64,000 nt of DNA from Owenia fusiformis (taxonomy: Eukaryota > Annelida > Polychaeta > Sabellida > Oweniidae): NCBI GenBank assembly GCA_903813345.2, contig CAIIXF020000010.1, positions 19,355,181 to 19,419,180 on the forward strand, read 5' to 3'. The position numbers were made by a program, and so were the translations under genes. Of the stretch, positions 11,420 to 64,000 are shown one piece after another. Positions within the stretch are counted from its first letter, which is position 1. Each line of letters starts with the position of its first letter. A model generated the notes under the pieces. That model ran no database searches and was not told the DNA's origin. It saw only the letters and a program-made list of their open reading frames with translations.

Positions 11420-12874
11420 GTAGAATCTTCAAATTAATTTGGCATGTCATGACTCCTATGAACCACCACATATAGAAATGGCATGCTGAGTAGTGTGTAC
11501 AGTCAAAAGACAACAATTTGCTCATAACATTTCATAAATCTTTCAGCTTATTTTTGTGTGGGTATGAAGTTGTATCCATTGCCAAGTTCATGCATGTAAA
11601 ATATAAGTGAAGCAAAATGGGATCAAAGTAGCCAAATGATAAAACTTGGTTTCTGGTTTGCCTACTGTGAACTCAGATATTTTTCCTACCAGAAACTGCT
11701 ATGTTTTGTAACTGTACATAAATATATTGTAATTGTCTTGTATGAAATCTGTCGATGCCGGGGGCACCAAATGTTTGGATAATTATTGCAATTATGGTGT
11801 TTGTCAAGATTTTTACTACAAAATTAAATTTTACGTGCAATATCCGCATTTTGTGTTTCGGGCAAATTTTATATTAGCAAAATGCTTCACATTGCATGGT
11901 GTATGGCATATTGTAAATTGGTGACTCCATGTGCTATATGTGTCATGCATATGTGTCATATATATGTGTCTGTGTCCTGCTGGCGTAGAATTTAGTCATT
12001 AGACAGTTAGATGCTGGCATCATGTAGTGTAAATCAAAAAGAAAATGAGGAAATATTGTTTAAGTGAAAGTGAAACATTGTTATATTAAAGTAATCATAT
12101 TTTAACTTTTATAAATCTATGTATATCAAAGAATTATGGTGATGTCATCACTAGGAAACTGAGGAATTTGATGACCCTGCTTATAATTAGTCCTTTCTGA
12201 TGGTATATAACAACCAGCTATAGATTTAGTATTTCATTGTACTGTACAGATAAACATATTTACATTTTACACCATATACTAGGCCAGTTTCAAACATACT
12301 TGGCATCGTTTAGTTCTTATACAATTAGATGATGTTAATGTGTATATAATTAGGCCTTAGATATCTCCTTGAGTACACCGGTTATACACAAAAACTCACT
12401 GCTGAACTGTAGAATCAGGAAAAATCATTTAAATGCGATATATTCTTATGAAAAATGTTCATAAGCTTGTCATAGACTTACATTGTGTTCCAAATCATGC
12501 TCCCCCTCCTTCTCGCAAATACAATTTTTGAGATATGGATAGGCGTGAGGACTGTTGGTACACAAAGTGCAAGTTTAGTAATTGTAAAGTGTGAGACTTA
12601 ATCTTCAGGCCTTTAATAATAATGGGATTCCAACTAAAATCTGCATTTTGAAATATTTTCCCATTTTGGAATTGTCCTGAGAAATCAGGCAAATTCTCAT
12701 CAGATTCCTTTTAACTTCCATCTTTGAAGTGTTATTAATGAAATTTTGTCTCCCTCGCTATGAAATATGATAATGAGATTACTTCTCTCCTCTAATAATA
12801 TCAATCAATTGTGTTTGAATCAGTGAAGATTTGAAGCTTAGCTCACCAAATACATGAAACATACTATCTAAAAG

Positions 12875-13175
12875 CAAGGAGGATTGGCTCCCAGGATCGA
12901 AACTCAATATTTTCCAACAATTAAAATATTGAAATGCCGTTATTTTCTGTATAACTGACTATAAATTCAAAATAAACAGTCCAAAAGATTCAAACCAATA
13001 TCTCGATCATTTCTTGAGTTTTGGAATTTTTTGTTAGGAAAGAGACCCTAAATTCACGATTCAAATGTTGAAGTGAACAAAATTGCAGCTGTTTGAATTC
13101 GAATTTTTTCTATTACGACATGTCCATTTATGGGACAGAATATCGATATTGCACTCTGGGAGCCAATCCTCCTTG
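12875..13175. mobile_element. 301-bp element with 20-bp inverted termini (copy in duplication unit 1)
   Basis: Starts CAAGGAGGATTGGCTCCCAG and ends with its near-exact reverse complement. No ORF is seen inside and no clear target duplication outside. Size and structure fit a MITE. The superfamily is not recognised. Confidence 0.7.
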
Positions 13176-13893
13176 ATCAAAAAGTGAACATTTCCACATA
13201 GGTATTATTATTATCATGTACAAAGTCTCAGTTAGCTAGCTTTCTTCATAAACCTGTAAATTAATGTATGAGTGTAGTCGCATAGAAAAATCTCATTGTA
13301 TCCGAGTTAATGTACAGCATCTTTGAAACTTGTGCTGTAATATATATCAATCAATTTTGATGAGTCGCAGTTGTTGAAACGGTATTAAAATGCGATCTCA
13401 ACTAGCCAATAAACTGGTTCAAATCTTAAATCGTGGCATAGATCCTGTTATGAATTCAAGAAAAATGAAATAATGGGAAATAATTGTTTAAAATGTGTTT
13501 GATAATTTTGAAAAAAAATGTTTCAACAATTTTCTTTTTTTGGGATTATTTAAGGTTGATTGATATAGTTGACAGTCCAATCTGTACACAGATATTTATC
13601 AGAGAAAATTTCATATTTTATTTTTCCATGTACAGTTAGTTATATAAGAAAATTAAAGATCCTGTGCTCTTTGTAACACATTTAATGTACAATAAAATAT
13701 ATTATAAGATGAAGAGAGTATGTGATGTTGATTATTGTTGAAACTTAATATGGTCAGAGTTCTCAAAGTTTTATTTTTATATCTACATGTATTTCATTTA
13801 AGAGACTTCTAATACCCCTAATATTTAATGACATCTGTTGGGATAACTTGAATACCAGTTGACAGATTTGGTGAAGATTTTATTGGCTGATAC

Positions 13894-14850
13894 TACAGTG
13901 TGTCTCAAAAAAATGTTACGCTTACAAAAATTTCAATATCTTTCATAATTGTGAATTTTCCCCTAAAATATACTTTGGACACCAAAAGACAAATCTTTCT
14001 TGAATAATTTGATACTAGACTGTGGACTACTCTGATAATTGCAACTTCCATTTTTCATGGAAGGTCACACATTCCAACATATTTCAAACAGTCTGTATGA
14101 TTATGCTAGGCACTTTCTGGGTAGTTGGACTTCATGTAGGGGTGGCAGACGGCCCTCAGGCCAATTCATACCCCCACCCTAAGAAAACCTTGGGGGTACT
14201 TTAATACCACCTGATAAAAAGAATACTAATGCATGTCATATATTCATAGTTTTATAGTAGGAAGAGCATACCATGGTTAGTCAGTGCCAGAAATGTCCAA
14301 TCTCTAACTTATATGGTTACCATGGAAACAGTATTTATATCTCAAAATCTTCTCAATTTGACCTCCTCCAAAATATGTCCCTTAGCCCTCAAAGTGAAAT
14401 ATTTGCAAATTTGTTTGGATTTTGTGGCTGCAACTTTGTCAAAAGGTGTATAAATATGTATATATTCACACTAAAGCACTAAAAAGTTGATATAATGCTC
14501 CAATAAATCAATAATATCTATCAAATATAGTCACACACAACTACTTTTAGGGAAAAGTGGGCGTGGCACTTTTTGGAACTTGTGTAATTGTTGCAGCATT
14601 AAGCAAAAAATACATATTACACTAACAATAATTGACATTTAATTATCATTTACTAACATTGTGTAACATTGTAATATGTTCATTATCATTATTAGATACT
14701 TAAATTATTTTATGTAAGTGTTATCATGAACTTTCCTTTTATCCCTATACCATACAAGGTGGGCATCACCAATGGTGTCAAACTAACTTTTCTATTTAAC
14801 TTATTTTTTACCATAGACAAGGGAAAAAGCTTTACTTGAAGTCGTGACCT
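13894..14850 (+). mobile_element. Decayed mariner-type DNA transposon, forward copy
   Basis: Begins TACAGTGTGTCTCAAAAAAA, a mariner-like end in a TA context. The following ~900 bp match, with divergence, the reverse complement of 21690-23046. Shared marks include ctttctgggtagttggact, the gggggtactttaatacca word and aaaagtgggcgtggcact. It lacks the part that holds the transposase remnant in the inverted copy. The right end is not clear. It is repeated exactly at 17823-18779 in duplication unit 2. Confidence 0.65.
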
Positions 14851-16803
14851 CATTAGGTGCTATGTATATGGATAGATGGATTGATACTAGTCGGTAGATG
14901 GCAGCACTTGTGCTAGTTGGGCTAGATACACGTATTTACCATTGACTTGACATGTGTCACTTAGTCTATTGATTTACCATATTCGTTCTGTTGGATTAAA
15001 GTAAAACTGCATTTGCATTGAATTTGATGATGTTCAGATTGTGTTTGAAACTTGATGATAATCAGAAGTGTTTGAAACTGGATGTTGTTCAGATTGTGTA
15101 CACATGAACTTTAATAGGACCACTGAAACAATAAGTCAATGTTTAAGATTCTTTAAAATTATCTCAATGAGAATCTAGCCTGTTAACCTATAGTTAAACT
15201 ACACTTCAGCAAGATTTCGAAGCTATATAACAAATCTCATAATTTGCAACTTTTTCATTATTTGATAATTTAACCCATTATTCTTTATTGCTGATTTAAA
15301 AATTGCAAGGAATTCAAATGACCTAGGGAAGCCAGTGATATGAATTTAGTAGAATCTTCAAATTAATTTGGCATGTCATGACTCCTATGAACCACCACAT
15401 ATAGAAATGGCATGCTGAGTAGTGTGTACAGTCAAAAGACAACAATTTGCTCATAACATTTCATAAATCTTTCAGCTTATTTTTGTGTGGGTATGAAGTT
15501 GTATCCATTGCCAAGTTCATGCATGTAAAATATAAGTGAAGCAAAATGGGATCAAAGTAGCCAAATGATAAAACTTGGTTTCTGGTTTGCCTACTGTGAA
15601 CTCAGATATTTTTCCTACCAGAAACTGCTATGTTTTGTAACTGTACATAAATATATTGTAATTGTCTTGTATGAAATCTGTCGATGCCGGGGGCACCAAA
15701 TGTTTGGATAATTATTGCAATTATGGTGTTTGTCAAGATTTTTACTACAAAATTAAATTTTACGTGCAATATCCGCATTTTGTGTTTCGGGCAAATTTTA
15801 TATTAGCAAAATGCTTCACATTGCATGGTGTATGGCATATTGTAAATTGGTGACTCCATGTGCTATATGTGTCATGCATATGTGTCATATATATGTGTCT
15901 GTGTCCTGCTGGCGTAGAATTTAGTCATTAGACAGTTAGATGCTGGCATCATGTAGTGTAAATCAAAAAGAAAATGAGGAAATATTGTTTAAGTGAAAGT
16001 GAAACATTGTTATATTAAAGTAATCATATTTTAACTTTTATAAATCTATGTATATCAAAGAATTATGGTGATGTCATCACTAGGAAACTGAGGAATTTGA
16101 TGACCCTGCTTATAATTAGTCCTTTCTGATGGTATATAACAACCAGCTATAGATTTAGTATTTCATTGTACTGTACAGATAAACATATTTACATTTTACA
16201 CCATATACTAGGCCAGTTTCAAACATACTTGGCATCGTTTAGTTCTTATACAATTAGATGATGTTAATGTGTATATAATTAGGCCTTAGATATCTCCTTG
16301 AGTACACCGGTTATACACAAAAACTCACTGCTGAACTGTAGAATCAGGAAAAATCATTTAAATGCGATATATTCTTATGAAAAATGTTCATAAGCTTGTC
16401 ATAGACTTACATTGTGTTCCAAATCATGCTCCCCCTCCTTCTCGCAAATACAATTTTTGAGATATGGATAGGCGTGAGGACTGTTGGTACACAAAGTGCA
16501 AGTTTAGTAATTGTAAAGTGTGAGACTTAATCTTCAGGCCTTTAATAATAATGGGATTCCAACTAAAATCTGCATTTTGAAATATTTTCCCATTTTGGAA
16601 TTGTCCTGAGAAATCAGGCAAATTCTCATCAGATTCCTTTTAACTTCCATCTTTGAAGTGTTATTAATGAAATTTTGTCTCCCTCGCTATGAAATATGAT
16701 AATGAGATTACTTCTCTCCTCTAATAATATCAATCAATTGTGTTTGAATCAGTGAAGATTTGAAGCTTAGCTCACCAAATACATGAAACATACTATCTAA
16801 AAG

Positions 16804-17104
16804 CAAGGAGGATTGGCTCCCAGGATCGAAACTCAATATTTTCCAACAATTAAAATATTGAAATGCCGTTATTTTCTGTATAACTGACTATAAATTCAAA
16901 ATAAACAGTCCAAAAGATTCAAACCAATATCTCGATCATTTCTTGAGTTTTGGAATTTTTTGTTAGGAAAGAGACCCTAAATTCACGATTCAAATGTTGA
17001 AGTGAACAAAATTGCAGCTGTTTGAATTCGAATTTTTTCTATTACGACATGTCCATTTATGGGACAGAATATCGATATTGCACTCTGGGAGCCAATCCTC
17101 CTTG
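16804..17104. mobile_element. 301-bp element with 20-bp inverted termini (copy in duplication unit 2)
   Basis: The same element as at 12875-13175, carried along by the 3,929-bp duplication and with no difference seen, so it is not an independent insertion. Confidence 0.7.
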
Positions 17105-17822
17105 ATCAAAAAGTGAACATTTCCACATAGGTATTATTATTATCATGTACAAAGTCTCAGTTAGCTAGCTTTCTTCATAAACCTGTAAATTAATGTATGA
17201 GTGTAGTCGCATAGAAAAATCTCATTGTATCCGAGTTAATGTACAGCATCTTTGAAACTTGTGCTGTAATATATATCAATCAATTTTGATGAGTCGCAGT
17301 TGTTGAAACGGTATTAAAATGCGATCTCAACTAGCCAATAAACTGGTTCAAATCTTAAATCGTGGCATAGATCCTGTTATGAATTCAAGAAAAATGAAAT
17401 AATGGGAAATAATTGTTTAAAATGTGTTTGATAATTTTGAAAAAAAATGTTTCAACAATTTTCTTTTTTTGGGATTATTTAAGGTTGATTGATATAGTTG
17501 ACAGTCCAATCTGTACACAGATATTTATCAGAGAAAATTTCATATTTTATTTTTCCATGTACAGTTAGTTATATAAGAAAATTAAAGATCCTGTGCTCTT
17601 TGTAACACATTTAATGTACAATAAAATATATTATAAGATGAAGAGAGTATGTGATGTTGATTATTGTTGAAACTTAATATGGTCAGAGTTCTCAAAGTTT
17701 TATTTTTATATCTACATGTATTTCATTTAAGAGACTTCTAATACCCCTAATATTTAATGACATCTGTTGGGATAACTTGAATACCAGTTGACAGATTTGG
17801 TGAAGATTTTATTGGCTGATAC

Positions 17823-18779
17823 TACAGTGTGTCTCAAAAAAATGTTACGCTTACAAAAATTTCAATATCTTTCATAATTGTGAATTTTCCCCTAAAATAT
17901 ACTTTGGACACCAAAAGACAAATCTTTCTTGAATAATTTGATACTAGACTGTGGACTACTCTGATAATTGCAACTTCCATTTTTCATGGAAGGTCACACA
18001 TTCCAACATATTTCAAACAGTCTGTATGATTATGCTAGGCACTTTCTGGGTAGTTGGACTTCATGTAGGGGTGGCAGACGGCCCTCAGGCCAATTCATAC
18101 CCCCACCCTAAGAAAACCTTGGGGGTACTTTAATACCACCTGATAAAAAGAATACTAATGCATGTCATATATTCATAGTTTTATAGTAGGAAGAGCATAC
18201 CATGGTTAGTCAGTGCCAGAAATGTCCAATCTCTAACTTATATGGTTACCATGGAAACAGTATTTATATCTCAAAATCTTCTCAATTTGACCTCCTCCAA
18301 AATATGTCCCTTAGCCCTCAAAGTGAAATATTTGCAAATTTGTTTGGATTTTGTGGCTGCAACTTTGTCAAAAGGTGTATAAATATGTATATATTCACAC
18401 TAAAGCACTAAAAAGTTGATATAATGCTCCAATAAATCAATAATATCTATCAAATATAGTCACACACAACTACTTTTAGGGAAAAGTGGGCGTGGCACTT
18501 TTTGGAACTTGTGTAATTGTTGCAGCATTAAGCAAAAAATACATATTACACTAACAATAATTGACATTTAATTATCATTTACTAACATTGTGTAACATTG
18601 TAATATGTTCATTATCATTATTAGATACTTAAATTATTTTATGTAAGTGTTATCATGAACTTTCCTTTTATCCCTATACCATACAAGGTGGGCATCACCA
18701 ATGGTGTCAAACTAACTTTTCTATTTAACTTATTTTTTACCATAGACAAGGGAAAAAGCTTTACTTGAAGTCGTGACCT
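17823..18779 (+). mobile_element. Decayed mariner-type DNA transposon, copy within duplication unit 2
   Basis: Exact counterpart, at +3,929 bp, of the element starting at 13894. It carries no independent information about transposition. Confidence 0.6.
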
Positions 18780-19276
18780 CATTAGGTGCTATGTATATGG
18801 ATAGATGGATTGATACTAGTCGGTAGATGGCAGCACTTGTGCTAGTTGGGCTAGATACACGTATTTACCATTGACTTGACATGTGTCACTTAGTCTATTG
18901 ATTTACCATATTCGTTCTGTTGGATTAAAGTAAAACTGCATTTGCATTGAATTTGATGATGTTCAGATTGTGTTTGAAACTTGATGATAATCAGAAGTGT
19001 TTGAAACTGGATGTTGTTCAGATTGTGTACACATGAACTTTAATAGGACCACTGAAACAATAAGTCAATGTTTAAGATTCTTTAAAATTATCTCAATGAG
19101 AATCTAGCCTGTTAACCTATAGTTAAACTACACTTCAGCAAGATTTCGAAGCTATATAACAAATCTCATAATTTGCAACTTTTTCATTATTTGATAATTT
19201 AACCCATTATTCTTTATTGCTGATTTAAAAATTGCAAGGAATTCAAATGACCTAGGGAAGCCAGTGATATGAATTG

Positions 19277-21690: not shown

Positions 21691-23046
21691 TAATTTGACC
21701 ATTAATGACCTATGATAGGGAAGGGTTATGATAACACTTATATAAAATATTTAAAGTATCTAATAATGATAATGAACATACTACAATGTTACACAATGTT
21801 AGCAGATGCTAATTTAATGTCAATTGTTGTTAGTGTTATAAGTATTTTTCATTTAATGCTGCAACAATTACACAAGTACCAAAAAGTGCCACGCCCACTT
21901 TTCCCTAAAAGCAGTTGTGTGTGACTACATTTGATAAGTATTATTAATTTATGAGATCATTGTATCAAGTTGTTAGTGCTTTAGTGTGAATACATACATA
22001 TTAATTCAACTTTTGACAAAGTTGCAGCCACAAAATCCAAACAGATTTGCAAATATTTCACTTTGAGAACTTAGGACACATTTGGGACGGGGTCAAATTG
22101 AGAAGATTGTGAGATATAAATACTGTTTCCATGGTAACCATATAAGTCAGAGATTGGAAATTTCTGGCACTGACTAACCATGGCATGCCCTACCCACTAT
22201 AAAACGATGAATATCTGATATGCATTAGTATTATTTTTATTGGGTGGTATTAAAGTACCCCCAAGGTTTTGTTGGGGTAGGGGTATAAATTGGCCTGAGG
22301 GCCTTCTGCCACCCCTACATAAAGTCCAACTACCCAGAAAGTGTCTATTATAATCATACAAATTGTTTGAAATATGTTGGAATGTGTGACCTTCCATGAA
22401 AAGCGAGATCCATTTCTAGAGCACTTCTACAGAATAGTCCGCAGTCTATACCATCAGATTCAAAATCAGCTTTTAGTGTCCCATGGTAAAATCTGTCTAT
22501 TTTAGCAGAAGTTCATTTAGGTCAGTTTGTGATGCTGTAAAGCACTTTCAGAGGCCCTTCAAAAAATCAAGGGTGTAAAGTGGGATGACCCTTGGGGCCA
22601 ATCCATTGGGTAATGCAATGCTATCTTCTGATTTCCAAAGAGTTCTACCAAACGATTTGCCACAAGCCTTTGCACCATCCTGTTGCCATCATACATAACA
22701 AAATTGAACACTATGACAATGAAATCTTGTATTTCTATCCAGGAAAGAAACAACTGGATCATTGATCATATCAAGATATCACTGTCCACAACATTCACAC
22801 CAAAAAAGAATTAATCACTACATGTCCAACCACTGAGAAGTTGGTGCAAATCACATTTCACATGTGTCTATAACATGTATAAAATCTGTCCTGTACAGCC
22901 AATCATGGACGGATTTTGAATCTGATGGTGTGGATTTATTCGAGAAATACTGGTCTTTTGGTATTAAGTATATTTTAGGGATAAAGGAAAAATCATGAAA
23001 GATATTGAACCTTTTGTAAGTGTAACATTTTTTGAGACACACTGTA
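21690..23046 (-). mobile_element. Decayed mariner-type transposon with transposase remnant, reverse copy
   Basis: On the minus strand it begins TACAGTGTGTCTCAAAAAAT at 23046 and matches the element at 13894 through most of its length. Between about 22400 and 22960 it has extra sequence. There the minus-strand ORF at 22559-22762 includes MDWPQGSSHFTPLIF. This is a degraded form of the WPxRSPDLTPLDFF motif near the C-terminal catalytic residue of mariner-related transposases. Frame breaks and lost consensus residues show it is dead. Confidence 0.6.
22400..22762 (-). pseudogene. Mariner-related transposase C-terminal remnant
   Basis: Readable only as a fragment. The stretch RLVANRLVELFGNQK followed by the WPQGSSHFTPLIF degenerate motif resembles the end of the DDE/D domain of mariner-like transposases. 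The expected acidic residue in the DLTPLDFF motif is replaced and the frame ends soon after. Inference by motif only. Confidence 0.45.
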
Positions 23047-32982: not shown

Positions 32983-35900
32983 ATGATGGACCCCTCAAAG
33001 CTGAACATCAATTCAGAGGATATGATGAATCAGGCTCAGAGTATCTGGTCAATGTTGGATGATATGTCTGAGAATAATCCAGAGAGTTACCGCAAATTCA
33101 TTGAGAAGCAGATGAAGGAGGGAAAACAAGCCATGAAACCACCTTCGCCACATATGTGTGTCCAAACGAGGGTAAGTCAATAAGTCATGTTAGCCATAAT
33201 GAAGAACACATTGATCTAGTATTAAGGCATAAGTGTAACTGATCTTTAATTTTAAAATTGGTTTCACCTTCATTTTATGCAGCCGTCTTTCTGCTTACAA
33301 ATCAAAGAGCTACACTACAGAGGCATTATTTCAAAATTCACACTACCGCACTGATCTCACCAGGATTTTTTCTCGGGTGGGTGCAAAATTATCATTTTCA
33401 CAATATTATTCATACAAACATTGGTCAAAATATGCCAATTTTTCATGATTTTCTCATTTTCAAGTGGGTGCAAATGGATTTTCAGGTGGATGGAGGACTA
33501 TATTCTAAATCTCACGTGGGTGCTGGGCCCACTTGCTTTAATCTGGGGAGATCAGTTCACTGGTATATGGTCTGCTATGATGTTTGTCATCATCATGACT
33601 TAAACTGTTACTTCTTACATATATGTTATATTTTCCTAATAAATAAAGATGTTGGCCCCTAAGAGAGTTTGATTTTAATGTTTGTACTTCCAGGACAACA
33701 AAAACAGAAAATTCTATATTAACATGTGTGAATGGCAACAAGTTCCTGATGCCAAAAATGAAGAGGCACCAATACCAGTTGTAGGCGGTGCTATACTGAC
33801 AGATTCTCAAGCTCAGGGTAAGTGGTGGTAATATTAAGAAAAATAAGTGATAATTTCTTTCTGTTCATTTATGGTTTATCGTGTATGTTTGTTTGATTAC
33901 ATCGAGGATGCTTTAATTGCAAATTTGAATGTTAAACTCATGGTACTATATTACAGGGTGAGCCAAAAAAATGTAACCCAACCAAATCTTAATAATTTAG
34001 TCATCCTGCATGAGTTTAGTGTCATATTTGGCACAATTAGGCCTTGTCCAATGTATTGTCATTCTACCAAGTTTCAGTGCTCTATCTCTAGTGGTTACGA
34101 TTTCATGGCCATTTTACAAAACATGCAACATGTATTGGGCGTATTTATTCACAACACGAACATAAACAACTTGTGTTAGGGCTCTCATCTTCATTCTTAT
34201 CTCTTGTTTCAAGGGTTGTTATAGAGTATAGGCCCACAGATTAAAATCTGGTGGGATTTATGAACAGTCAGTGAGGCACATTTCTGCATTTTGAGCATGT
34301 TTTGTAAATGACCATAAAATTGTGTGACTATTAGAGATAGACCAGTGATACTAAGTAGAATGAAAGAACATTAAACAAGGCCAATATGATTTAGAACAAT
34401 GCTGAATGACTGAGTTATTACCATACATTTGTTTGGGTTACCTTTTTTGCTCACCCTGTATAATAAGTTGATTAATCATCCCATCAAACGAAATTTGGAG
34501 GGATATGGAGAATGCCTCTGTCCGTCCGTCTCTCTGGATGGCCTGATTTTGTTCATATTTTAAACACATGTGCCCTATGTCAGCAGAAGTTTTCCTCGAA
34601 AGTCGATTTTCAACATTTTTATGTTTGTTATTTTATATTTTCTAATACAATTCTAAAAGTAAATATAGCGATTTTGTTCATATTTTACATGTGACTACTT
34701 ATAAGCATGGTACACTGTTCATTGACAATTTTACTCGAAAATGGCCATTTTGAAAAAATGTTGTTTTATGAAGTTTGCTGTTACTAAAATCGTAGTGAAG
34801 CAATTTTATGACCGCCATGGCCATTTAATGAAGTCATGCCTAATGTTGGAAAAATGTCACCCACCCATAACTTGAGAGGTTAATATGCCTTGATACTTTT
34901 TGAATAGCCATAAAAGGAGATCTACTGTAGTTTATAGGTCGAACAAAAGGGCGCTTCATCTAAATATGAGTGTCATTTTTGTGCCATCTCCAGGTATTAA
35001 CATGCTTAAGTGAATAAGTGTACATGTCCAGGTATTAACATGTTTAAATATACATCTTCAAGTATTAACATGCTTAAATGTATATATCCATGTATTAACA
35101 TGTTTAAATGTATATCTCCAGATATTAACATGTTTAAGTAGATATCTCCATATATTCACATGTTTATAAACATCTCCAGGTATTAACATGTTTAAATGTA
35201 CATCTCCAGGGATAAACATGTTTAAATTTACATCCCAATGAATTAACATGTTTAAATGTACATCTCCAGGTATAAACATGTTTAAATGGACATCCCAAGG
35301 AATTAACATGTTTAAATGTACATCTCCAATTAGTAATATGTTTACATGTACATTTCCAGGTATTAACATGTTTAAATGTACATCACTATGTATTAACATG
35401 TTTATATGTATATCCCTATCTATTAACATGTTTAAATGTACATTTCCAGATATTAATGTGTTTAATTATACATCTCCAAGTATTGACATTTTTAAATGTA
35501 CATCTCCACTCTCTAGATATTAACATGTCTAAATGTACATCTCCAAATATCAACATGCTTAAATCTTCACTTTCATGTATAATAAACATGTTTTAAATGT
35601 ACATTTCAGGAGATGTAGTCATAGCAGCCACTGCCTTCAATCCTAATATCCTGAAAGAATATGGCAAGAATGCTAAGAGTAAGGAAACGAGAGACTGTCT
35701 CATTGGGCTTGCATGTGATTTTATAGAGGACCAAAACAAACCAATCAAATTATCAAGAGACTATGTTGTTTTGGATAGCACAGACTATTATGGCAACCCA
35801 GCTCATATAGCTAAAGCATTTGAAAAACAAACCAAGAAAATCGAAAAAGAATTTGAGAATAATATATCAGAAATTGAGAAAACGTTTGGGGCATTGGCTC

Positions 35901-41524: not shown

Positions 41525-42540
41525 TGACTCACACAGTGAGCCTATGGGACGACCAGGCGTCCGTCCGTTTGGTCGGTCCGTCCGTCCGTTGGTCGGTCCG
41601 TCCGTCCGTTGGTCCGTCCGTCCGTCCGTCAACATTGGCCGCACAAATTAAAACTGCTATTCGGATTGAGTCATATCTACAGTCATTTTATGCATATCCA
41701 TAATGCCTATTTGACCTATCATCGCCATTTCCCAAGTTCGCCCGGTTTCCGAGAAATTGCTGATTTTGACGTCAGAAAGTCAAATTTTCTGTAAATACTA
41801 GATACTTTGTTGAAGTAGAACTTTCAAATAACTTGTAGTAGTTGCTGTATATGCAACTTATGTCCTCTGAAGATTTCAAAGCTCTTGGAATTACAGTTTT
41901 TGGTGCTTACTCTATAAAATTTGACAAAAAGTAGGACTTCGTCATTTTCAGGAAACTTTCTTATGTATAAAGTCAATGGCAGGTTTTGTGATTGACAAGT
42001 TTCTCAAAGTTTGCCTTATACTTGATCATTTCTTGCAATGAATTACATCAAAACTAGATTTAAGCATTCCCTACATATTGCTCAATATATGTCAGCATCA
42101 AATTTTTACCCTTTTTGAGATATATGACGTAAAAAAACTCAAAAAAATAAGTTATTTTTCAACTTGCTTCAATTTGACTAAATTCTTTTTTGAAAATCAT
42201 CTACAAGTTACCAGGAATTCAAATCTGACATTAGTTTTAGGATTTGACCTTTACTTGACCTTCAGTGACCTTTGAAAGGTCAAAAAGGTTGATTTTTCAA
42301 ATTGATTTTTGGATGTAAATTTTGGTCAGCTTAATCACAAAAGCCCTTACTGACCTCTAAATAAGTAAAATTTTCAAGGTCAAAGGTCATCACAACTAGG
42401 TCACACAACTGTGCTGTCTAAGTTTCTCAAAGTTCGAGGCTACAAATCCAAATCAATATTTTTGTTTGAAAGTCAGGATATACATTCCTCTGAAGGTTAC
42501 AAACTGTGTGAGCACAGGACCGTGGGTCCTATTTTTTAGT
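41525..42540. repeat. ~1-kb dispersed-type repeat with GTCCGTCC tract
   Basis: Opens with tgactcacacagtgagccta and a (gtcc g) tract at 41560-41630. It closes with aaactgtgtgagcacagg and a gtgggtcc word, a weak inverted match to the opening. The body is AT-rich with several tgacctt/aaggtca words. No coding capacity. Family unknown to me by name. Confidence 0.5.
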
Positions 42541-44718: not shown

Positions 44719-50748
<6,030 letters not shown>

Positions 50749-53219: not shown

Positions 53220-56200
53220 TCAGCATTTGGCATCTCTTCGTTTAACTGCATTTAGTATTACATCGGGTTCCACCCGTGTGTCCTTAGCTAAGGCAGGTAG
53301 CTGTAGCCTAAGTCTCTTCCAAAACATTTCCACCTTCCTTCGTTGTTCATCCTGAGGCCATTTTATAGTTTTAATGACTTTCATGGCAGATTTAGTACTT
53401 GCCCTCTCCAAGTAATCGTTCCAGTTCTCGATAGGTTTATACACAAGGAATGTACATTGTCTATGATGTTCTAGTGCTACTTTAAGCGCAAAGTCGCACC
53501 AACCGCTTTTGAGGAAACTCGGTGTAATCAGAGCTATGAAGTGCTGACTCGCTTGGATACATCGTAAATATTCATCAGCAAGAGCTGGAAATGAGCAGAA
53601 GAATATAAAGGTCAAGGTCAAATGATGATCGGCAAAATGAATTTGACCTTCTGAGCCTATGTGAACGATAAGCAGAGGGTATCAGTAGTCATTTTGTTTG
53701 TTTTCAAAAAGCAGTATATCCAATTTACTGTCGTCATTGGTGAATTATTCTAGAAGACAAGGTTTCGCTTTTATAAAACGCACGAAAATATTTACGCATA
53801 TGCAGCCATCTTCGTTCACTCGGCTCCTGTCGGTCGAACGCAGTGAAGAGTACAGTGAAACACATGTTGAATACCTGTTTGTAACTAGCAGAAATGAATT
53901 ATATGTTGTAAAATGTTTACTTACTTTCTCCCGCTCCAAAATCCCTGTCAATTATACACATCTTATAATTACATTTCTCTTCTAGTTCAGTCAACATGGC
54001 AGTTACCACAAACTCTTGGTCATCATCAGATTTGTGGTCGTAAGCCACAAACATGTGGTAGCACATGTCCTCTGAAAAAAGATAGATGTGATTGTTTTTT
54101 ATGTCGTCATCACCAGAAGTGGTGGTTATATTCAACATTTTTTGTGGGTTGTGTGTGGCGGTCGAGGTGTGTAACAAATGGAAGGTGGTGACATTTTGCA
54201 TGTTGAGGACTTTTATGTCACCACCAGACGTGATGACATTGTTATATTCAACATTTTTTGTGGGCGGTAAGTGGCGGTCGACGTCTGTAACAAATGGAAG
54301 GTGGTGACATTTTGCATGTTGCTGACTTATGTCTCCACCAGACGTGGTGACATATTGTTAGTCTCCATCTTATTTGTGGATGGTGTTCGGTGGTCGGTGT
54401 CTGTATCAAATGGCAGGTGGTGACATGTTGCATGTTGGTGCCTTGTCTTATTAGTAATATCAACGTGATCCTAGGCTATAGTTGTGTTAAATAGCTGTTA
54501 AATAACTTTGAATGTTACCAATGTATGATTTTACTGCAGCAATACTCGCTTGTCGTTAGCCTGGTTTCATTTAATTAACTGCACATCGCCTAGATTATTG
54601 AAAACAAATCTCCACCCTCGACTGCATCGACCCCTCTAGAGCTTTCCAGTTATCAAAATGGCATGAAAAGGTGAATGAAAAATTCCCCGATGATTCCCGA
54701 AACACAGAATTTTTCAACAAAATCATAGCTTCAAAGAGTCATGGTAACCTAATAACCCATCACGATACCCGCACCCTCGTTATCTTGGACTTTCCAAAGT
54801 GACTCACGCAAGCGGCAGACCCGGGGCGGCAGATAGATAAGAGCAGGCCTGTACACCATATGTAATAATCGAATTAGATGAAATAAATTAAATCCAGAAA
54901 GTTTTTCTCAGAATTTAGACGAGGAGTGGAAATGAGAATTTGAGGAGATTAATAGTTCAGAGTATATAAGGACGTGTCATACCTTAATCTATTCGTTTAT
55001 ATATGCTTTCAGTGAGAAAATATATATTTTAAATTCTGAGAAAAACTTTCTGATGACAAAATAATTATCCTAAGTTATGCAATTTATGTATCATCGACAT
55101 TTTCAGAGAATTGATCTTTTAATGTGATGTCACATGTGTGATAATGTCACGTGTGAGAACTTTTATATTATTGTTACCTAGAGGTTCTCCAGTTTGCAAT
55201 TGGCTCTTAACGATGAGTTGTATTTCCAACCTGTAGTTGAATCCTAGAAGGCAGACAAAGGCCACTACAGCGAAAAGACAAGCCACCGTGATCACAGCTG
55301 GTTTGAAACCACCAGGATCCGATATTACAGAGCGAATGATTTCCGTGGCATCAGGGTCTGAAAGAGAACATGGACACGTTTAATATGGTTTGATTGGATT
55401 TGGTAATGGAAGAACAAACCAGTCATTTAATGATCACTTGTTTAGCCAGTGGGAAATGGGAAAGGAGGTAGTTTAGAAAATATATGACAGAAAATGCAAG
55501 ATTGGGTTCCCATGGACAATATGTAAAAGATGTTGATCAGAAACAGACCTTGGATGATGTCGAGCCTATTGTTTCTGTTGACCATTTTGACACCAGTATT
55601 ATTGACAAAACTGAAAGACCACATACAATCTACTCTTACCTCCAGATAAGGGTTATTGGCAATTTCCGACACTATTTGTGATTAATTGAATCATGGGTTA
55701 TTTTTATTTTCGGGGTTTACGTCTACTTGTAATCTACAGTAAAACCTGTCTAAGTGAACACCTGTCATGTATTTTGTACACTACCGTAAAACAGAACGTG
55801 TAGCCATATTTCTGTATTACTTGTTAGTACCTCCATAGATAATTGATGCATTAAAATAAACTTTATCTCTCCGTCTCCCCCTTGTCATTCGGCACTCATA
55901 GGTGGCGTTGTAGTCGTCTAAGTTGACATCATCAACATGTAAATATGCTCCAACTATTAAAGAGTCATATCTGAAACAATCAGAGTGCAGATGAAAAAGC
56001 AATTTACACTATTAGCATCGTACAAAAGTAAAGACTATACAAACAAGAACACTGTGGGATAGTGTACAAATAGTGACTGCCATTGAGGGAAATAGTGCAA
56101 AATATTTTCCTCAAGGGAATATCCTGTCCACTGACATGTTCCCGAGGCTGCAGGCCGAGGGAACAAGTCAGTGGACAGGATATTCCCGAGAGGAATTTTT

Positions 56201-59200
56201 TTACACTATTTCCCGAAAATGTGGCAGTCACTATTTGTTTTATTATATACCTGATAAGTACTCTGTAAACAAAAACAAAATGAGAAGTCTTTTCATTTCA
56301 ATATCAAATGTTCACAGGTTCTTATTGGCATTTAAAGGCATTTTACCTTTCAACTCCTATAATCTCAGATTTGGGGGAAGATAAAATGTACTATTGACTG
56401 GTCACATGACCTAACTGGTGATTAGTACAATTCATCTTCCCTGAAAGCAGGGATTTAGGACTTTCCAGGGAATTAGTTCATCTATTCCATGTCATGTGAC
56501 CATGAATAAGCCAATGAGCATCTAGAATACATTTGAGGTATATAATAATCATTAATAAAGAACGTCGCAAGGGCGCCGGGAGTTTTATCTCGGACATAAA
56601 AGTTGCCTGTGTCTACCCGAATTTTCTCAACCAATCTTATCGATGTTAGTGTTCGGCAGTTGTTGTTCGGCGGTCGGCGTAGTCGGGGAACTTACTTTTT
56701 TACGGACACTTCTCTATGTCTTGGCAAATTTCCCGCAAATTGAATACTACCGTTGTAATATTTCAACCAGTAAACACTTTTTCTCCTAATAGATCCAAAG
56801 TATGCCTCGCAATAAAACGTGACGTTCGCCCCGGGGAGGGCTACTACGTCACGTGGTTCCTCTGACACGAGGGGTGGTCCAGTGTAGTCAACGAATTCTG
56901 AAAAAGTAAAGAACTTAGTATTCATTGAACTCAAAGACACTTTACATGTAGTAGGTGTATTCAAGAATCGGATTTATTGTCATTAGAGAGATTTCGCAAC
57001 TCACTTATAACATGTTTTTGTGGCGTCGGAAGGGAAAGCGTTGGGGGTGACCGTCCCCCGCTTCCCTAGAATTGAAAGCTCTAGAGTTAAATGCGACTTT
57101 GAAGTTTGAAAAGAAAATGGGCTAAAAAATTTCAACGTTTTTTTCTCTGACCTGAAATTTAGCCCCCCCCCCCCCCCCCCCCCCCCTATTGGTTCCCAGA
57201 TCCGCCCCTGCAATGCCCCCGTATAGAGCTGCGCATTAAATGATAACGTAATCAAACGTTTCAGAAGTAATGTTATACAGGAATAATCATGCTATAAGTG
57301 AGTTGCGAAATATCTCTATTATCATCTTTGCAAGTCGTAGAGTCGTCGTATCTTGGTTCAAGAACAATACTTCCTTTTGATTCAACTTTTTTTGATTTAG
57401 GACCGATTCATGGATTAATTCAAGTTATTTGATTTTAACATCCTGTTATATTTATTACTTATAAGTATCAGGCCTTATTCCCACGAAAGCGGGCTGTCTA
57501 AGTTCGAAATGGAAAGGATGTTTAAATTAAATCAACACACCCTGTGACTTCAACGAAATGGTGAGTCATCAGTCAACTCAAGAGACCCAGTCTCATTCCA
57601 CTGACGGCATATTTAATCTCTTACTGACATTTTGTCGCGAGTGCATTTTTCGTATCATGTCATTCACACTACCGTACCAAGCCCCGTAGAATACTTTTGA
57701 ATCGTGGCGACCTCGCAAAAAAGGTCGAAATTTTAAAGCCGGATGCCCCAGTAAAGTTGTTTAATTCTATGATCACTAAAGAATCACTTAAGTCGACACT
57801 TACAGGTTCTGACCAATGTAGCTGGCAACTACAGATAAGCCCACTATTGTTCTAAAACTTGAAACATGAGAAATAAAGGACGGAAGAGTTTCCCTTTACA
57901 TGGCCTTAGACCATATATTCAAATTAATCCAAGACTGAGTTTAGATGTATTATTAGTGTTACCTAAGACAGTGAGGTTGACTGCATGCGATATAACGTCG
58001 GCTCCAGAGGCCACGTCCCTAGAAGCTACGCCCCTACACGTATACAGCCCAGCGTCTTCTAAATATGTATCCTTAATGACTAATGTCTGGTTGTTATTCT
58101 CCAGCTTTATTCGTCCTTGTCTCTCCCAGGGAAATGGTTCACCATTGAAGTGCCACTGTAAGGTAGCGTATCCTTCCGCACAACAATGGAGATCTTTGTA
58201 TTTGGCGTGGACGGCAAAGTCAATGAGATTTCTCTCCTCAACGGGTCTAGTGAATCCGAGTTCGGCTATCAAAAATCAAATTTAACATTTTTTCTTTAGT
58301 AAGATTGGTTAAAGTGGCAACAAGGCCTGTAGAGAGTTGTGTAACTAACCCCCCTATCACACCAAACTAGTTCTTACCCGTTCTTGCCAGTCCTACGAAA
58401 ATGTCGTACAACGGGCTCAGTCTGGCTGCGGTCGGGATATATGTCTAAAATAATTAGCTACTTCGTTCATAAACAGTCCTCAATACGTCCATCTCATTCG
58501 CAGTTCGTTCAGGTCGCACCACGTCGGTGTGCAACGTAGTATAAACCGTCCCTTAGTCTAGAAGGTCATCATGACCTGATTACAGAACGGTATGGTCGCC
58601 ATCGAATTTTAAATCGATTCAAAATTCTAAATCACATACCCCGTCCGGGAAAGTCCATGAAGTTCGTAAACAGACCGGAGAACGTTGTAGCTACGTTCAT
58701 TCAGTTCGCACACAGTTTGAAACCGGTTCGGCAACGTTTGGACGATCACCAGAATTTTTTTTAGCATTCCCTAAGTGCTGGAGGACCTACTCGTTCTAGT
58801 AGTTATATGAAGTTTGTATACAGATCCCAAACGGTTTTTAGTGGGTTCTTAGTACGTCAAATCCGTTCGTGCACAGTTTAAGCCCGTTTTCGAGACGTAG
58901 TGAGAACTAGTTTGGTGTGATAGTAGGGTAAAATAGCGCAATATTCAAATATTTGAAAACTAGAAAAAAACAATTAACTATTTTTCTAAGATTCAACTTT
59001 TTCGAAATACATACAATTATCTAAATCATCAAAAACATTATTTTCAAACTCTGCATAGAGTCTTTATGCGTCATTTTTTCAACTATCCATCATTTACTTA
59101 AAAGATTATGTGTATTTTCTAATTGGATAGATGCGAACCTTAAAGAAAATAAAAACGTATAAAGATAAGAATTAAAATTTTATTTAACAAGAGCGAGGTT

Positions 59201-62357: not shown

Positions 62358-62858
62358 AGCTACGTTCACACCAACGGCGCTTTGATGGCGCTTTAAAGTT
62401 GCTTGTAAAGCGGCACCAAAGCGTAACAAAGCTTCATTAAAGCGTCGGGGTCGTAATAGGTCCTAAAAAACCTCGGAGTAAAACGGGATATTCGGCAAGA
62501 GCGCCAAACATTTTTAAAGCTACTTTCACACCAACGGCGAATGCCACGCTTTAAATCGGCGAGCAAAGCGCTGTCATTTATGTTTACTTTTCCAAAAATA
62601 TCACGATCTCCTAAGTAATGTTACGCTCTGATAAGCTCTGATACGCTCTGATTTCCCGACTTGTTACGGTTCCTCACGCTATGATCCCGCTTCGACCAGG
62701 CTTTGTTACGCTTAAAATCACGCTTTGATAAGCTTTGGTAAGCATTATTACGCTTTGATGCGATTATGACGCTTTAATCAGGCTCTGATACGATTGCCAA
62801 GCTCTGTTGTGCATTTTCGAGATCGCCTTTATCATGACGCTTTTTGATCAAATGGCTG

Positions 62859-62864
62859 TATAAA
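62859..62864 (+). promoter_or_regulatory. Candidate TATA box inside the foldback element
   Basis: TATAAA in ggctgtataaagatgc, 48 bp before the ATG of the 29-codon ORF at 62912. It sits in the only stretch of the unit free of the cgcttt motif array, which makes it stand out. Promoter activity is inference. Confidence 0.35.
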
Positions 62865-62911
62865 GATGCAGTAGATCCATAAAACCATTGCATCTGTGAC
62901 TCGAGAAGACG

Positions 62912-63001
62912 ATGGCAGAACAACAAGATCCAGAATTTCCAGATGGACCAGATCATGACCCATCTGAAGAAGACATGATGTTTGTCGCACGGCGTGAATG
63001 A
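62912..63001 (+). CDS. 29-codon ORF at the centre of the foldback element
   Basis: ATG to TGA, predicted peptide very acidic in the middle: MAEQQDPEFPDGPDHD then PSEEDMMFVARRE. It lies near the centre of the 62518-63573 unit, between two motif arrays. It could be a captured first exon of a host gene, the start of a lost transposase gene, or chance. No homology recognised. Confidence 0.3.
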   Translation: MAEQQDPEFPDGPDHDPSEEDMMFVARRE

Positions 63002-64000
63002 GCGTGAGAAAGCGTGAGGAAGCTTGTCAAGCGTAACAAAGCTTAAAAAAGCGTTTCAATCCTTGATTAAAGCGTCTCAATTCGTGAAAAACCTTCATGA
63101 AAGCGTAACAAAGAGTGTCAGATATATTAATGAAAGCGTCTGACCTCGTGTCAGATCTTCATGCCAGATCGTAGCAAAGATTGAGACATCTAAACGAAGC
63201 GTGTCAAGTGGTAACAGACCGTGAAGAGACTGGGGTCCCCGCTTTGAACCAAGCTCTGTTAAGCTTTACTACGCTTTAGGTCAAGCTTTGCTGAGCTTTG
63301 TTACGGTTTGTTAAGCTTTGATACGCTCTCGGCGCTTCAATCAATTCGTAACGGAGCGCCCAAAATTTTTAAACAGTTTAAAAAATTTTGGCGCTCTTGC
63401 CGAACATCCCGCTTTACTTCGAGCTTTTCTACGACCTATTACGACCCCGACGCTTTAATCAAGCTTAGTTACGCTTTGGTGCCGCTTTACAAGTCCCTTT
63501 AAAGCGCCATGCTTTGGTGCCGCTTTGCTCGCCGATTTAAAGCGTGGCATTCGCCGTTGGTGTGAACGTAGCTTAGCTATGTTCACACCAACGGCGAATG
63601 CCACGCTTTAAATCGGTGAGCAAAGCGCCGTCACTTTTGTCATTTTTGTTCATACCAACCGCGCTTTGATGGCGCTTTAAAGCGGCCTGTAAAGCGGCAC
63701 CAAAGTGTATCAAAGCTTGATTAAAGCGGCGGGGTCGTAATAGGTCTTAGAAAAGCTCGGAGTAAAGCGGGATATTCGGCAAGAGCACCAAAAAAAGTTT
63801 AAACTGTTTAAAAATTTTGGACGCTCTGTTACGAAATAATTAAAGCGCTGAGAGCGTATCAAAGCTGAACAAACCGTAACAAAGCTCAGAAAAGCTTGGC
63901 CCAAAGCGTAGGAAAGCTTAACATGGCTCTGATAGGTTCCTCACGCGTTGACCAGGCTTTGTTACGCTTGAAATCATGCTTTGATAAGCATTATTACGCT

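Follow-up and report, generated by a model that had tools for sequence, protein, structure and literature searches.

A probable foldback-type element with strand-switching arrays of a 10-bp motif in Owenia fusiformis

Foldback elements are defined by long, composite terminal inverted repeats (TIRs) that contain short tandem repeats, and they arose in different superfamilies (PMC3169594, PMC4079207). For instance, Galileo, a foldback-like element of the P superfamily in Drosophila, has long, internally repetitive TIRs (PMC3688188, PMC3573991), and additional sites for its THAP transposase are located within the TIR repeats (PMC3688188). Galileo copies without a transposase that consist of two TIRs have been described, as have copies with recombinant TIRs (PMC3688188, PMC3573991). 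Its TIRs reach up to 1.2 kb, with repeats of ~210 bp in subfamily F, and its target site duplication (TSD) is 7 bp long. In Tm1, a Mutator/Phantom foldback element of root-knot nematodes, the TIRs are composed of several domains and contain a short motif, mostly of 14 bp, which is repeated in runs and in variable number; copies without a transposase occur as well (PMC3169594). Tetris and the Drosophila element FB4 have palindromic modular arms, a variable middle and rearrangements among copies (PMC4079207, PMC2955051). For Tetris, no transposase was found, and the repeat unit is ~220 bp (PMC4079207).

Short motifs that are repeated in both ends and bound by the transposase are also known from the hAT elements Ac/Ds and Hermes (PMC3260210, PMC10368747). 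The Ac transposase binds AAACGG repeats cooperatively (PMC3260210). The BED domains of Hermes bind subterminal repeats with strict phasing, and these repeats are oppositely oriented in the two ends of the element (PMC10368747). Furthermore, in plant MULEs with tandem TIRs, the outer terminal sequence is accompanied by an additional one (PMC3310237).

Here, we analysed a window of 64,000 nucleotides from the annelid Owenia fusiformis (contig CAIIXF020000010.1, positions 19,355,181 to 19,419,180), which contains a cluster of inverted units at 62358–64000. With moderate confidence, and from this one locus, we read the cluster as a terminal fragment (Z), a bounded copy (X) and an incomplete second copy (Y) of a foldback-type DNA transposon whose motif arrays are docking sites for a transposase. 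The features of the cluster are as follows.

62358–62517, plus strand: Z, a terminal fragment whose 22-bp terminus AGCTACGTTCACACCAACGGCG is directly joined to an A block; aligned with X-right and Y.
62518–62583, plus strand: left terminus of X (B block); inverted repeat with the right end of X and 91% direct repeat of 63575–63640.
62602–62845, plus strand: D_L array, with 15 of 16 motif sites on the plus strand; from autocorrelation, sites and orientation.
62846–62986, no strand: motif-free centre, with TATAAA at 62859–62864 and the first part of a 29-codon ORF (62912–63001).
62987–63223, minus strand: D_R array, with 15 of 15 motif sites on the minus strand, the first one weak.
63238–63340, plus strand: C_R array, with 10 of 10 motif sites on the plus strand; homologous to the copy in Y.
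63360–63391, no strand: AT-rich palindrome of the right arm of X, from the sequence; in Y too, at about 63788–63820.
63396–63510, minus strand: A block of the right arm of X; 62385–62518 and 63377–63510 are complementary over 134 nt at 90%.
63521–63574, minus strand: right terminus of X (B block), from the inverted-repeat map.
63575–64000, plus strand: Y, a further unit in head-to-head orientation to X, comprising terminus, A block, AT palindrome, C array and the start of D; cut by the window end.

X is a bounded copy (62518–63573) whose ends, 62517–62570 and 63521–63574, are complementary at 98% over 54 nt. At the junction of X and Y, 63521–63573 and 63575–63627 are complementary at 96% and lie 1 nt apart; over the whole cluster, the inverted pairs range from 54 to 152 nt. 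The repeat map confirms the ~54-bp inverted unit ends and the head-to-head abutment at 63573/63575 that the original prediction had described. The four ends have AGCTA..TTCACACCAACGGCG in common. When read inward, X-right and Y are colinear at 87.1% identity, such that the terminus with the B block is followed by the A block, the AT-rich palindrome and the C array. Z passes from the terminus straight to A and stops inside the AT palindrome, and the left arm of X consists of B and then D_L, without A, palindrome and C. The region 63257–63923 is an imperfect self-palindrome of 667 bp (82.4% over 699 columns), and the single-strand fold reaches −330.1 kcal/mol compared to −103.1 in 20 shuffles. 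The terminal 53 bp are marginally better conserved (2/53 vs 37/274 mismatches, p 0.06; p 0.19 when compared to a part of the arm with 25/253 mismatches). X may be an element of its own or part of a longer one that extends over 62358–63573.

The hexamer AAAGCG occurs 18 times and its complement CGCTTT 17 times within the 1,643 bp of the cluster (expected 0.13 and 0.16), and they occur 5 and 6 times, respectively, in the remaining 62,357 bp of the window. Using a 10-bp matrix with the consensus CACGCTTTGA, we detected 88 spaced sites in the cluster (53.6 per kb), a count that is optimistic since the matrix was iterated on the cluster itself; outside, the scan gave 256 matrix positions (4.1 per kb). 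The original prediction had claimed a recurrence every ~10–11 bp and had asked for an autocorrelation against shuffled sequence. We observed that lag 10 gives the top autocorrelation of 62518–63573 (35.8% identity, z 7.8), reached in none of 500 dinucleotide shuffles, and that lag 20 is the second strongest. Across 59 control windows (60 shuffles each), the top z at lag 10 or 11 was 3.8. The D_L, D_R and C_R arrays are each periodic at lag 10 individually (0/500, 0/500 and 1/500 shuffles), and the motif-free centre gives no lag-10 signal (z −0.9). The recurrence is thus real, with fitted periods of 10.55 bp (D_L), 10.45 bp (D_R), 10.35 bp (C_R), 10.20 bp (C_Y), 10.60 bp (A_L and A_Y, four sites each) and 10.00 bp (A_R). 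Because the minimum distance was not always enforced in the null for crowded arrays, the counts of fits as good in 2000 are rough: 46 (D_L), 3 (D_R), 3 (C_R), 83 (A_R), 36 (A_L), 30 (A_Y) and 11 (C_Y).

The strand-switching blocks were upheld as well. The 88 sites form 21 orientation runs compared to 45.0 expected, and none of 20,000 permutations gave as few. Sites are on the plus strand in 15 of 16 cases between 62602 and 62836, on the minus strand in all 14 cases between 63007 and 63214, and on the plus strand in all 10 cases between 63238 and 63331. The blocks stand as described, and further motif sites lie in the A blocks and throughout what is visible of Y. The C copies of X-right and Y are alike beyond their common motifs (142 vs a null mean of 67.1, 0/1000 unit permutations). 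For D_L and D_R, an inverted-repeat relation beyond the common motifs was not demonstrable (606/1000 permutations), nor was a likeness beyond motifs between D_R and D_Y (576/1000). The comparison of D_L to D_Y is only suggestive (68/1000 permutations with 5 units).

When comparing the locus to the described systems, the likeness lies in the long repetitive or composite inverted repeats of Galileo and Tm1, in the modular palindromic arms of Tetris and FB4, and in the repeated short motif of the hAT ends. Galileo differs from the locus, which has a 10-bp unit and where no TSD was found. Tm1 differs in its motif, in its asymmetric 7-bp end motifs and in its 9-bp TSD, and the strand-switched blocks seen here are not described for it in the available extract (PMC3169594). 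In the tandem-TIR MULEs, the extra terminal sequence can be compared to Z beside X; these elements have recognisable TSDs (PMC3310237), whereas none is seen here. Ac/Ds and Hermes differ by short TIRs without long inverted arms, and neither a hAT transposase nor an 8-bp TSD was seen here. The FB repeats of 10, 20 and 31 bp are the nearest in unit size to the 10-bp motif. The original prediction knew of no named family with this layout; this is too strong, since the foldback group is itself defined by long TIRs of composite structure that contain short tandem repeats.

The reading as a foldback-type mobile element is carried by the inverted ends, the colinear composite arms and the palindrome, and this part of the original interpretation is well supported, whereas its promoter or cargo centre is not. 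Long multi-domain TIRs are present in X-right and Y, with the left arm of X lacking A and C, and the short tandem repeats in the arms are evident from the lag-10 signal and the motif sites. At the ends, no target duplication of at least 4 bp was found around X beyond the common end sequence, and none of 7, 8 or 9 bp; Z+X likewise gave only a 4-bp match (tested pairs: the ends of X and of Z+X). As no transposase gene was seen in the visible part of the cluster, X is read as non-autonomous. Galileo, Hermes and Ac serve as analogies for the arrays, to which the transposase of an autonomous relative outside the visible sequence probably docks. This transposase would recognise the 22-bp terminus and would dock repeatedly on the array motifs along one face of the helix, which would raise specificity and pair the two ends for cut-and-paste movement. 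In the composite arms, a conserved terminus is followed by an A block and an AT-rich palindrome, and then by the C and D arrays, which face inward and have ~10.4-bp spacing. The irregular layout would result from rearrangement at repeats and palindromes, with a deletion from A to C in the left arm of X, and the same process would have produced the end of Z in the AT palindrome and the head-to-head joining.

The arrays might instead be a decayed short tandem repeat of the same foldback element that spread through slippage and unequal exchange; they would then bind no protein, and their period would be accidental. We regard this as a serious possibility but lean against it. It agrees with the spacings, which have their mode at lag 10 and scatter at 9–13 and 19–23, and with the absence of phase compensation, as equal or better coherence was obtained in 2643 (D_L), 2036 (D_R) and 1993 (C_R) of 3000 permutations. 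In addition, mismatches are not significantly rarer in the motif core than at other positions (15/136 vs 38/258, p 0.35), and the TIR repeats of Tetris and Galileo grow and shrink. Cooperative transposase binding, as originally proposed, is plausible by precedent and has no independent sign of selection on motif or phase. Decay alone fits poorly with the strict orientation of the motif blocks, with arrays at matching places in two arms, and with six of the seven arrays being best fitted at 10.2–10.6 bp, though three of the seven have only 4–8 sites. Moreover, comparable repeats in studied elements bind transposase (PMC3688188, PMC3260210).

A more elaborate form of docking, which we consider unlikely, is that the alternating blocks of the 10-bp motif, with a spacing of about one helical turn, are a phased scaffold on which the transposase would polymerise from each arm and stop at the strand switches. 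The orientation of the arrays would then encode the position of end pairing.

The centre had been proposed to be captured cargo or a promoter that regulates itself; in this reading, it would include a small gene and be controlled by the flanking arrays. The motif-free stretch was located where it had been placed, with its TATAAA ~50 bp upstream of the ATG, and it is the sole long one: the largest gap between site starts (62836 to 62987) is 151 bp and the next largest 65 bp. The ORF runs from the ATG at 62912 to the TGA at 62999–63001, and its last codons extend into the D_R array, which speaks against the proposal. When the bases of the centre were shuffled 5,000 times, an ORF of at least 29 codons arose in 804 cases; among 1,244 151-bp tiles of the window, 221 contain one, and TATAAA is counted 58 and 71 times on the two strands. 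The 29-aa peptide had no match in Pfam or among PDB sequences. A bacterial promoter scan gave 1 hit compared to a shuffle mean of 2.5, from a model that is inapplicable to an animal genome. Since neither the ORF nor the TATA box exceeds what chance would give, we reject the centre as a working gene, consider a promoter or cargo role very unlikely and unsupported, and treat the centre as filler with no functional gene.

It is also highly improbable that the arrays work via DNA shape, that is, by phased bends or nucleosome placement instead of specific protein binding. The period is near-helical, the highest curvature in the element (0.452, as estimated from wedge parameters) exceeds the maximum of the rest (0.378), and AA/TT power is high in D_L (reached by 19/414 controls) and Y (7/413, at 11.25 bp). 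However, AA/TT phasing is ordinary in X as a whole (38/174 controls), D_R (133/414), C_R (170/415) and A_R (215/415).

Concerning the surroundings, PIH1_CS, SAM_PNT and Ig I-set were matched above their Pfam cut-offs and a TIR domain just below its own, and the window content is, judged from its sequence, eukaryotic and metazoan. Minus-strand pieces with an Ig domain and a split TIR domain (53223–58275) resemble exons of a single receptor gene, which suggests such a gene ~4 kb left of the element. Tandem arrays are found at 35015–35604 (unit ~30 bp), 50062–50473 (~44 bp) and 41558–41630 (~20 or 4 bp), and 21719–22402 is an inverted repeat of 14052–14736 and 17981–18665 (685 columns, 90%), probably another dispersed repeat. 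A 3,927-bp tandem duplication (11420–15346 and 15349–19275) with 100% identity is either very recent or an assembly fault. Palindromes can arise from hairpin chimeras, and this duplication shows that an assembly fault in the window is conceivable, yet we give almost no credence to the head-to-head palindrome being a sequencing or assembly artefact, since its arms diverge (87.1% identity over aligned columns plus a 31-column gap), whereas arms produced by a read artefact would match almost perfectly.

In searches for relatives, the 15-base terminus was found in 61 stretches of viral contigs and at least 118 stretches of genome contigs. Blast of the element against these 179 stretches gave, among the matches listed, a best E of 0.004 and a longest match of 38 nt, which we take as chance. 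Longer patterns gave no matches, nor did phages and plasmids, and Rfam gave none. A text search of published papers did not find the sequence, and the search of these papers gave no publication with the 10-bp motif. As far as seen, this is a so far undescribed foldback element of an already known type.

If the arrays do not dock a transposase, the element is merely a further repeat family for annotation. If they do, it would supply many closely packed, naturally occurring transposase sites with near-helical spacing and built-in strand switches, and would be useful for testing the recognition and synapsis of foldback ends. Structures such as the head-to-head palindrome promote inversions, a role that has been proposed in the case of Galileo.
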